A DNA stretch of 36,460 bases from a virus. Under the pieces are notes generated by a model. The model was not told where the DNA came from, ran no database searches, and was given only the letters and a program-made list of their open reading frames with translations. The position numbers and the translations under genes were made by a program. The DNA lies in IMG/VR virus record IMGVR_UViG_3300008459_000155, positions 1 through 36,460 of that record. One strand, written 5' to 3'. Of the stretch, positions 3,439 through 32,951 are shown in pieces. Positions within the stretch are counted from its first letter, which is position 1, and each line of letters opens with the position of its first letter.

Positions 3439-5097
3439 ATGGCTAAAGTTGTAGATAACTACAAGATCTTTAAGACTCTAAGTTTTTTTGTTGAAGACAT
3501 ATTAAGAGACACCATAAATTACCTGACCCTAAAGTACGGTCAGAGTAAAGCAGTATTCACGTCAGCCTCTCCATTTGGACAGTTATTGCTGGTGGTTGAA
3601 AACCTTACTCAATTGGTATTTTATTACATTGAGGACTCCATCACCGAGCTTAACATAAATGAAGCGACACGCTTGACCTCAGTCTACTCATTGGCTTCTC
3701 TTACCGGCCATAACCCAAGCCGAGCAGTCTCGGCGGTCGGGGAGATTAGCCTATCCACTATTGCAGGAATGGAGCCACCTGACACTGATCTTGTGATCAT
3801 TCCAAACCTTACTAAGCTAAGATGCAAGAGAAATGGACTCATCTATGTGTTAGACCTTCCTCAGGACGAGATAAAATTCTCCTTCAATGGATCGAATAAC
3901 GGGATCAAAATCGGAATTCGTCAAGGGATCGTTGAAAACCAGAGAGTGACGGCTAAGGGCGAACCGATTGAAAGCTTCTCAATAGGTAGCCCTCAAAACT
4001 TTTACATGGATAACTTCTTAGTGAACGTCTATGTTAATGGTGAAAAATGGACCAAGTATAATTCTATCCTAGACATGCCTAGGGGAGAAAAAGGATTTAT
4101 CGCTAAGACTGGGATCACCAGCGGATTAGATATCTATTTTGGAAATGGAAGTTATGGAAAGATTCCTACCCGTGGAGCCGATATTGATGTTGAGTATCTT
4201 ATCACTGAGGGTGCAAACGGGAACATTCAGACTCAAGACAAGGCTGCGATACTGTTTGAATTCATTGATACAGGTTTTAGTATTCTAGGAGACGAGATCG
4301 ATCTAAACAAGTACATAGAGATCACAACAACGAATCCTCCTTTCTTTGGAGCAAACTCTGAAGACTCTAAGCTTACTCGACTAATCGCGCCAAAACAATC
4401 AAAGAGTTTTGCCCTAGTCAATGTTGATCACTATGAGAGCGTGCTTAGAAAGCTAAAGCTCTTCTCCATAATCAACGTCTATCTCGATGAAGTGGATAGC
4501 CGAATACTAAACCTATTCCTAATCCCTGATATCCGAAAGACCTTCAGCACCGCACAGGACTATTTTAGTGCTGCAATCGAGAGATTCATACTCACAGACT
4601 ATCAGAAAAATCAGCTTCTTGCATACATCGAAAAGTCTGGATCCAAGCTGATCTCAACTGACATTAGAATAGTCGACCCGATTCCTAGCGAATACGTGAT
4701 CAATACTTCAATAATCGTGTTCGATGACGTCTCGACAGAAATCATCAAGAGAGACATTCTCAATGGGCTCGGAGACTATTTCATTCAGAACACACGACTC
4801 ACTAGAATTCCAAAGAGTGACTTAATAAAGCTCATTGAGGAGGTGAACGGAGTCGATTCAGTCTCTGTAAACATTGTCTGTCGAAAGAATGAGGTTGCAA
4901 AAATAGCTAACCCAAGCGCACCAGACGTTGGAGTCGACGAGTTTAATGACATAATAGTGGACGTTCAGGAACTTCCAATAATTCGAGGAGGATTTAGCGA
5001 TAGATACGGAAACGTTTACTCTACTGGAATCACCGAGGATGCACTCGGACCGGTAAACATCCAGATAAAAGACATTGTAGCAAGACCTAAAAAATGA
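3439..5097 (+). CDS. Baseplate wedge protein, T4 gp6-like (baseplate J family)
   Basis: A 552-residue protein, somewhat shorter than T4 gp6 (about 660). The diagnostic stretch is FGNGSYGKIPTRG at 234-246, followed by a V-E-Y-L-I-T-E-G-A-N-G-N segment. This matches the pattern F-G-[DN]-G-x-x-G-x-x-P-x-x-G plus Y-x-x-T-x-G-x-x-G-N of baseplate J/gp6 proteins. In contractile tails gp6 dimers form the ring joining baseplate wedges around the hub. The C-terminal third (about 330-520) has the alpha/beta repeats expected of the family. It leads a plus-strand run into the terminase genes, with a late-type motif just upstream. Confidence 0.85.
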   Translation: MAKVVDNYKIFKTLSFFVEDILRDTINYLTLKYGQSKAVFTSASPFGQLLLVVENLTQLVFYYIEDSITELNINEATRLTSVYSLASLTGHNPSRAVSAVGEISLSTIAGMEPPDTDLVIIPNLTKLRCKRNGLIYVLDLPQDEIKFSFNGSNNGIKIGIRQGIVENQRVTAKGEPIESFSIGSPQNFYMDNFLVNVYVNGEKWTKYNSILDMPRGEKGFIAKTGITSGLDIYFGNGSYGKIPTRGADIDVEYLITEGANGNIQTQDKAAILFEFIDTGFSILGDEIDLNKYIEITTTNPPFFGANSEDSKLTRLIAPKQSKSFALVNVDHYESVLRKLKLFSIINVYLDEVDSRILNLFLIPDIRKTFSTAQDYFSAAIERFILTDYQKNQLLAYIEKSGSKLISTDIRIVDPIPSEYVINTSIIVFDDVSTEIIKRDILNGLGDYFIQNTRLTRIPKSDLIKLIEEVNGVDSVSVNIVCRKNEVAKIANPSAPDVGVDEFNDIIVDVQELPIIRGGFSDRYGNVYSTGITEDALGPVNIQIKDIVARPKK

Positions 5098-19989: not shown

Positions 19990-20093
19990 TAGCGATAATC
20001 ATTGTTCTTAGTTTCGCTAGCTGCAAATCATCTCAAACGACGTGCGATGCATACGGCAAGATCGATAATGACAAGAAAAGTACTAACATATGA
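19977..20093 (+). CDS. Mini-lipoprotein (38 residues), overlapping both neighbours
   Basis: A GTG start at 19977 (in-frame stop just upstream at 19965) opens a 38-codon gene reading (M)EKLIAIIIVLSFASCKSS, then Q-T-T-C-D-A-Y-G-K-I-D-N-D-K-K. This is a short signal sequence with a basic residue, a hydrophobic core and a lipobox F-A-S-C at 13-16, followed by Lys-Ser-Ser. In the Bacteroidota such signals and tiny lipoproteins of this C-D-A-Y type are common. It overlaps the 648-residue gene by 13 bases and the next gene (from 20068) by 26. Outer-membrane spanin or another membrane role is inference. The weak points are the short length and GTG start. Confidence 0.5.
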   Translation: MEKLIAIIIVLSFASCKSSQTTCDAYGKIDNDKKSTNI

Positions 20094-23421: not shown

Positions 23422-23431
23422 GATCGGGCTC

Positions 23432-23440
23432 AATAAATAA
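23432..23440 (+). promoter_or_regulatory. Late-promoter-like motif (AATAAATAA)
   Basis: A CAATAAATAATTTT element after the glycosyltransferase stop, 37 bases before the ATG at 23478. It suggests the secreted protein gene is expressed late, separately from the modification cassette. Confidence 0.4.
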
Positions 23441-23477
23441 TTTTAAGAGCACCAGCTTTTAAAATAACCAGCCCATC

Positions 23478-24551
23478 ATGCGACTTTTATTACTATTCTT
23501 GATCATAAGTTTAGGCTTAAATTCCCAAACAGTCATTCGTTACGATTACATGGAAACTTGGAACTGGGCAGGTCTCTGGTGGACTCCCGCTGCTACTGCT
23601 AACTGGTACACTAATGCATCTGTCACTCCCACTGAAAGCGCCGTTATTTATGGGTTAGGTAACGGATCATCGGCCATTGAACAGGACTGGTATTCTATGC
23701 CAAATGTGACAGGTTTGAATTCAGCATATCAATATCAATTTAAGTTTAAACTTGCCTCATATACTTTCTCCAACTCAACTGCTACTACTAGAGGAGTCGA
23801 CGCAGCCGATTACGTATCAGTTCAAGTTTCAACAAACGGAGGAGTGAATTATACGACAGAGCTACGAATAACTGGAAACAGTAATGCTACATGGACGTAT
23901 ACTTCTACTGGATCAATCACTCATACTGCCAACGGATCTTTTACTAATTCAGCTGCTCCTGCAGGAGACGTATATCAATCTGCTTCTGGAGCAAATTCAA
24001 CTAGTCCATCGACGATTCTTTTAAACTTGCCGATTGGCATCACTCAAGTCGCGGTCGACATTTACTGTAGAATAAATTCAGCAGGTGAAGAATGGTGGAT
24101 AGATAACGTTGAACTTATCGAGATTGCGCCGATCTCCTTACCTATTGAGCTCATATCCTTTGATGGAGAGAATTTTGAGGAGGCAAACACCATTACATGG
24201 AAAACAGCTAGTGAACACAACACTGATTACTATATGATAAAGAGATTGACTGGTGATACTTCTAAATATGAGGTAGTCGGCACGGTCGGCGCAGCTGGGA
24301 ACAGCACGACTCCTCTTACCTATCAAATCATAGACAAAACGTATTCTCCAGAAATAAATTATTATGTCCTTACTCAATTTGATTTAGACGGAAAATACGA
24401 GGAATTTGGACCCATTGCAATAGACAATCGGAAATCAATAAAGAAAATAATTAAGGTTACTAATCTACTTGGACAGGAGGTTTCATTAGATTCTAGCGGG
24501 ATCCTAATCGTAACTTATTCAGACGGCTCATGTAAAAAAGTATTCAAATAA
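23478..24551 (+). CDS. Secreted protein with T9SS-type C-terminal sorting domain
   Basis: 357 residues. The N-terminus MRLLLLFLIISLGLNSQ is a classic Bacteroidota Sec signal. Residues about 20-215 form a beta-sandwich (jelly-roll) domain ending E-W-W-I-D-N-V-E-L-I. Then S-L-P-I-E-L-I-S-F-D-G opens a second domain that reads W-K-T-A-S-E-H-N-T-D-Y-Y, A-A-G-N-S-T, Y-Y-V-L-T-Q-F-D-L-D-G, as in many flavobacterial surface proteins. The last 40 residues (K-V-T-N-L-L-G-Q-E-V, G-I-L-I-V, Y-S-D-G-S-C-K-K-V-F-K) match the type A sorting domain of the type IX secretion system. Such proteins cross the outer membrane and are surface-anchored or released. The gene looks intact, but a T9SS cargo is unexpected in a phage. 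Confidence 0.85.
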   Translation: MRLLLLFLIISLGLNSQTVIRYDYMETWNWAGLWWTPAATANWYTNASVTPTESAVIYGLGNGSSAIEQDWYSMPNVTGLNSAYQYQFKFKLASYTFSNSTATTRGVDAADYVSVQVSTNGGVNYTTELRITGNSNATWTYTSTGSITHTANGSFTNSAAPAGDVYQSASGANSTSPSTILLNLPIGITQVAVDIYCRINSAGEEWWIDNVELIEIAPISLPIELISFDGENFEEANTITWKTASEHNTDYYMIKRLTGDTSKYEVVGTVGAAGNSTTPLTYQIIDKTYSPEINYYVLTQFDLDGKYEEFGPIAIDNRKSIKKIIKVTNLLGQEVSLDSSGILIVTYSDGSCKKVFK

Positions 24552-32744: not shown

Positions 32745-32951
32745 ATGTATTATATCGCAAAAGTAAAGTTTGAAACGGTTGATGACAACACCGGAAGAAT
32801 CAAGAAAGTCTATGAACAGTACATTGTCGACGCTGAGACCATCTCAGAGGCTGAGGAGATCCTAAACGATAGATTTAGAGACTCAATCGCAGAGTGTGCA
32901 GTAGCATCAGTTCAAGAGTCGAAGATAATGGGAATTGTGACTCGCCGATGA
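32745..32951 (+). CDS. DUF4494-like small protein
   Basis: 68 residues. It matches the layout of the DUF4494 family common in Bacteroidota and their phages: Y-I-A-K-V-K-F-E-T, then G-R-I-K-K-V-Y-E-Q-Y-I-V-D-A-E-T-I-S-E-A-E. The function is unknown; a small antiparallel beta-sheet plus helix is expected. The ATGA overlap with the next gene shows coupled translation. It supports a Bacteroidota host. Confidence 0.75.
   Translation: MYYIAKVKFETVDDNTGRIKKVYEQYIVDAETISEAEEILNDRFRDSIAECAVASVQESKIMGIVTRR

Follow-up and report, generated by a model that had tools for sequence, protein, structure and literature searches.

A gene located at positions 23,478 to 24,551 on the plus strand of the window, which is the whole 36,460-nucleotide stretch of viral DNA analyzed here, is a regular component of a T4-like phage. 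The explanation that best accounts for its product overall, and which we moderately favor, is that of a late phage protein that passes through two host export steps, Sec followed by the type IX secretion system (T9SS). The frame is open and intact, and the predicted product of 357 amino acids consists of a Sec-type signal peptide, a jelly-roll domain, an FN3/Ig-like linker, and a short C-terminal tail. We annotate the gene (23478..24551, +) as encoding an exported adhesin-like protein on the basis of its open frame, the conservation of its family, the neighbors that it shares with related contigs, and Ka values far below Ks in the informative pairs.

Signal peptide, jelly-roll domain, and linker

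The N terminus of the window protein, MRLLLLFLIISLGLNSQ, resembles a signal peptide and ends in the Bacteroidota-style SQT, and a Sec-type signal peptide was placed at about residues 1 to 17 (23478..23528, +). By a simple rule, all 62 family members examined have a signal-like start, which bears out the Sec signal that an earlier, sequence-only reading of this DNA had proposed. That reading had also claimed a beta-sandwich. Residues 16 to 216 (23523..24125, +) were modeled with AlphaFold2 from 49 sequences at a pLDDT of 93.4, and the resulting N-domain model was compared with known structures using VIA-align. The match to the MAM domain of meprin beta had a Z score of 13.5 over 147 residues at 3.0 A, that to CBM61 a Z score of 13.2, and those to the cleaved-adhesin domains K1 to K3 of Kgp had Z scores of 10.8 to 11.7 (K3 = 11.7). 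The model and its matches agree with the claimed beta-sandwich and assign the domain to jelly rolls of the MAM / cleaved-adhesin type. When searched by sequence, neither the window protein nor the aligned members gave a MAM or cleaved-adhesin Pfam match. Foldseek matches to glycoside hydrolases (TM about 0.2) came from the first full-length model, which was poor in the N-domain, and were discarded. The N-domain profile matched 24 of 395 cellular genomes, and 6 of the 12 cellular N-domain loci that were read (L240, L241, L247, L248, L249, and L250) ended, by eye, in PNP-type T9SS domains.

The jelly roll is followed at about residues 220 to 316 (24135..24425, +) by an FN3/Ig-like linker of the flavobacterial T9SS type, with FN3-like fold matches at residues 222 to 321. 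This LPIELISF...AAGNST...QFDLDG linker matched T9SS-type proteins of Flavobacteriia, Crocinitomicaceae, and Saprospiraceae, in keeping with its first description as flavobacterial. Because of the jelly-roll fold matches and the FN3/Ig-like residues, we call the exported portion, as modeled, adhesin- or lectin-like, and the jelly roll and FN3-like domain together would probably constitute a ligand-binding module, for either a glycan or a surface protein. The same fold matches bear on a different explanation, in which the product is a T9SS-exported carbohydrate-binding adhesin, bound to the surface or released, that alters attachment involving infected cells, new hosts, or polysaccharide particles rather than acting as a phage shield. 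Close fold matches to the carbohydrate-binding modules CBM61, CBM16, and CBM4 argue for such an adhesin, as do the gingipain adhesin domains, whose fold is equal to that of the window jelly roll. However, a shared jelly roll is no proof of sugar binding, and MAM/Eph-type domains of that fold bind proteins; we regard this explanation as rather unlikely.

The C-terminal tail and T9SS sorting domains

The C terminus had been read as a type A T9SS sorting domain, and this assignment failed. What follows the linker is a stretch of about 39 residues (KKIIKVTNLLGQEV to SSGILIVTYSDGSCKKVFK; residues 319 to 357, 24432..24548, +), approximately half of the 72 positions of the TIGR04183 model. Type A domains comprise about 70 to 90 residues in seven strands, and the window tail is without their PNP-containing first half. 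When the C terminus was checked against TIGR04183 and PF18962, the window protein gave no match to either at an E value of ≤1, so its direct membership in TIGR04183 was rejected, and a search of the whole record with the two models found none. We interpret the tail instead as a putative reduced T9SS export signal, on the basis of its profile (A3), its C-terminal position in cellular proteins, and its exchange in relatives. The glycine and the K/R-rich end of the tail are conserved in profile A3, and an hhalign comparison of the short tail with the canonical CTD aligned only 13 columns at 37.6% probability, upstream of both of these features.

Other members of the family carry the canonical domain. 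Three relatives (L040, L043, and L142) passed the TIGR04183 cutoff, and 3 of 30 aligned family members matched the model. The short tail and the canonical TIGR04183 domain thus replace each other on a constant N-domain family, and since this secreted domain stays the same while the type of end is swapped, the exchange is the strongest indication that this end acts in sorting. It also amounts to a natural experiment, on one phage family, on the minimal T9SS signal. According to the literature, the final 22 residues of HBP35, with motifs D and E, are sufficient for export. By inspection, the short tail retains the region corresponding to that described in PMC11285876.

To reach the genomes of Bacteroidota, we searched with a consensus of the linker and tail. 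The tail profile matched five of the nine Bacteroidota genomes selected and, in a sample of 395 genomes from one class, 27, and a shuffled-sequence control for the profile gave matches in 0 of 370. Judged by eye, the cellular proteins with this tail have propeller-like, leucine-rich, beta-lactamase-like, and adhesin-like folds; most of them start like signal peptides, and in several an LPIEL linker precedes the tail. Among the fetched cellular loci, the tail lay ≤8 residues from the C terminus in 24 of 25 matches. A signal-bearing look was noted for 16 of the 17 cellular tail matches that had an upstream stop, and under a stricter rule a signal-like start was present in 16 of 23 tail-bearing ORFs versus 30% of other ORFs. 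SprA was found in all 27 tail-bearing genomes but also in 385 of the 395 sampled overall, so its co-occurrence with the tail says little.

These results bear on whether Sec alone would account for the protein, which would then act in the periplasm or outer membrane, with the short tail serving as a folding element or in some other role and not as a T9SS signal. It would accord with this that the window tail is recognized by no T9SS model and has a weak profile link to canonical CTDs. Against it, canonical T9SS domains occupy the tail position in some relatives, the linker is typical of T9SS proteins, and the tail is found at the end of many secreted proteins of cells, whose folds differ. We consider export by Sec alone unlikely.

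The phage family and the leader of the gene

The window encodes a large terminase (phrog_5989, E value of 1.5e-51), a baseplate wedge protein, and an endolysin-like protein. Its terminase was closest to those of huge uncultured phages, Sphingomonas phage PAU, and Flavobacterium phage MaF61, among others. The large terminase and baseplate wedge of the window, together with the Gp23 (PF07068) that adjoins relatives, make up a T4-type late-gene setting. A search of viral contigs with the window protein gave 48 related loci, and a search with the N-domain profile found relatives in at least 80 viral contigs. After duplicate removal, the family set contained 63 distinct ORFs with the N-domain, of which 49 end in the short tail, 5 end in a canonical type A domain, 5 are cut by contig ends, and 4 (L172, L174, L190, and L194) are divergent or borderline. 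Across the family, conservation is higher in the N-terminal domain than in the tail. Two contigs (L034 and L036) have ten window genes, the focal gene among them, in conserved order, and in a third (L038) the neighborhood is kept, with neighbors up to 99% identical and a focal protein 68% identical. In the informative pairs, Ka was much lower than Ks for both the N-domain and the C-terminal 100 residues, some of the other pairs being saturated and others too close to inform. The family is under purifying selection in phages. In the phage collection, no annotated cultured phage had the family, the matches being to four huge uncultured phage records only, and a canonical-tail member had no match there.

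In two contigs (L023 and L181), the family gene immediately follows gp23, the major capsid gene, and in L015 one gene intervenes between them. This adjacency to gp23, along with Foldseek matches to phage minor tail proteins, would suit a virion decoration protein such as a tail fiber or head-binding adhesin. However, the signal peptide in all members would take the protein out of the cytoplasm, where virions are assembled, its C terminus is of the secreted-protein type, and the tail-protein matches (TM about 0.4) are generic jelly rolls, making a place in the virion improbable. A host gene joined to phage DNA during assembly, or cargo that was acquired recently and is carried passively, is hardly credible at all: the linker and tail are host-like and distant jelly-roll relatives occur in cellular proteins, but the same neighbors recur in independent contigs (L034, L036, and L038), which rules out an assembly join with host DNA, relatives are found in the many viral contigs noted above under purifying selection, and a single-protein scan of genome contigs gave no close copy of the window protein. 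The intact phage gene first proposed is thus supported by the open frame, the terminase and baseplate wedge, and the synteny, and it is one that related phages have kept.

The sequence-only reading had also noted a late-type motif upstream of the gene, and this observation holds. The motif, ATAAATAA (23433..23440, +), lies 45 nt upstream of the start codon. There are 12 plus-strand copies of it, and 10 are within 45 nt 5' of an annotated start. Since they are concentrated just before start codons even though intergenic sequence is scarce (only 1,056 intergenic bases before position 32745), the late-promoter reading of the motif is a good one. A predicted leader hairpin (23422..23477, +) surrounds the late promoter and reaches up to the start codon; in its outer stem, the stretch upstream of the late promoter pairs with the bases immediately 5' of the start codon. 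This fold was the strongest and most significant of the 26 window leaders tested (z of about -5.7), and L038, L034, and L036 have hairpins at the matching position, with a different sequence in L034 and L036. In T4, the hairpins of some genes block translation on early transcripts, and late transcripts start within the hairpin. The arrangement found here would fit such a scheme, and the leader hairpin may possibly act as a T4-style block to translation on early read-through transcripts.

Several other features of these genomes were observed. The N termini of the proteins starting at window positions 20002, 27515, 28031, 30115, and 30578 consist of short leaders, such as MAILTFNDFINE followed by D and MKVKNFAGFMRARRLNE followed by S, that resemble the capsid-targeting sequences of T4, in which the head protease cleaves after (L/I)xE. 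The window proteins bearing these leaders, one of them Nudix-like and one peptidase/endolysin-like, may be internal head proteins. Many small ORFs with common leaders, for example MKKIIRLTESDLNRIIKRVLNE and MKRIKLFEEFLNE, are present in the flanks of L015, L039, L045, L164, and L190, and these are perhaps of the same head-targeting kind. In the lineage of L002, L011, L022, and L028, the family gene is near genes for a GroEL chaperonin (phrog_5725, E value of 8.7e-175 in L002) and a CobT/VWA-like protein and near a ClpS-like ORF.

Probable export and possible role at the host surface

For export by Sec and then T9SS, the steps would be as follows. The late promoter would cause the protein to be made late in infection, the Sec signal, for which the sequence support is good, would direct it to the periplasm, the short C-terminal tail would hand it over to the host T9SS, and the T9SS would place it on the outer surface of the infected cell or release it from there. 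From its sequence features, T9SS export of the protein to the infected-cell surface or the medium is likely. The surface product that had been proposed at the outset therefore stands in its Sec signal, beta-sandwich, linker, late promoter, and conservation, with T9SS export as the best reading, and falls in its type A domain.

Flavobacterial gliding and T9SS proteins influence how phages adsorb, and a mutation in GldM makes cells phage resistant (PMC13288928); for this reason, a phage product at the host surface might hide receptors or restrict superinfection. We offer the conjecture, which we think more apt to fail than to hold, that late coating or modification of the surface masks receptors against superinfection or against readsorption of progeny to the cell or its debris. 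Competition for the export machinery, also raised in the sequence-only reading, would be another possible effect. Slightly more doubtful, and put forward tentatively, is the broader proposal that widespread T4-like phages of Bacteroidota apply a lectin-like adhesin to the surface of infected cells at a late stage by means of a reduced T9SS signal missed by curated models, shielding them from superinfection or freeing progeny, and that this signal marks an overlooked class of host cargo. If this is right, T4-like Bacteroidota phages routinely exploit the host secretion machinery by which adhesins regarded as candidate phage receptors are also built, and this would provide a concrete route to surface remodeling or superinfection control in a phylum in which little is known. 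The putative export tail is missed by present annotation in both phages and hosts (including the 27 sampled genomes), and the T9SS secretome may therefore be undercounted.

The belief that no known phage uses the T9SS did not survive comparison with the literature. Cryophage, described in 2020, has three T9SS-tagged cargo genes, for which the authors proposed that the phage hijacks the T9SS of its host and excludes superinfecting phages (PMC7468147). Like the window phage, Cryophage encodes proteins with T9SS sorting ends, but its cargo, in a genome of 76 kb, consists of endoglucanase, GH39, and PA14 proteins that end in canonical type A domains, whereas the window family comprises MAM-type adhesins of T4-like phages, mostly with the short tail. 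In a second case, cluster 2 of the crAss-like phages, BACON / T9SS-domain proteins are encoded near head genes in phages of Bacteroidetes (PMC6949934); this cluster differs from the window family in its BACON cargo domain and in its phage group. Phage-encoded T9SS cargo is thus already known. The novelty of the window family lies in its occurrence in T4-like phages, in how widely it is distributed, in a cargo of the MAM type, and in a short tail that lacks annotation. Among cellular proteins, the cleaved-adhesin domains of the gingipain Kgp and MAM-type T9SS cargo are like the window protein in fold and in their T9SS route, but the window protein is without the protease domain of Kgp and is about 11 to 13% identical to its adhesin domains. 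A previously deposited protein that belongs to the family is A0A6J5PHN9, an uncharacterized protein of 354 amino acids from an uncultured Caudovirales phage, which is 75% identical over the jelly roll. Separately, a 634-kb uncultured phage (LR745206.1, locus L259) encodes a secreted protein of the T9SS-linker type, the matching part of which is out of frame with the upstream ORF, and the adjoining ORF at 4038-4751 looks, by eye, like a GH16-type glycoside hydrolase.
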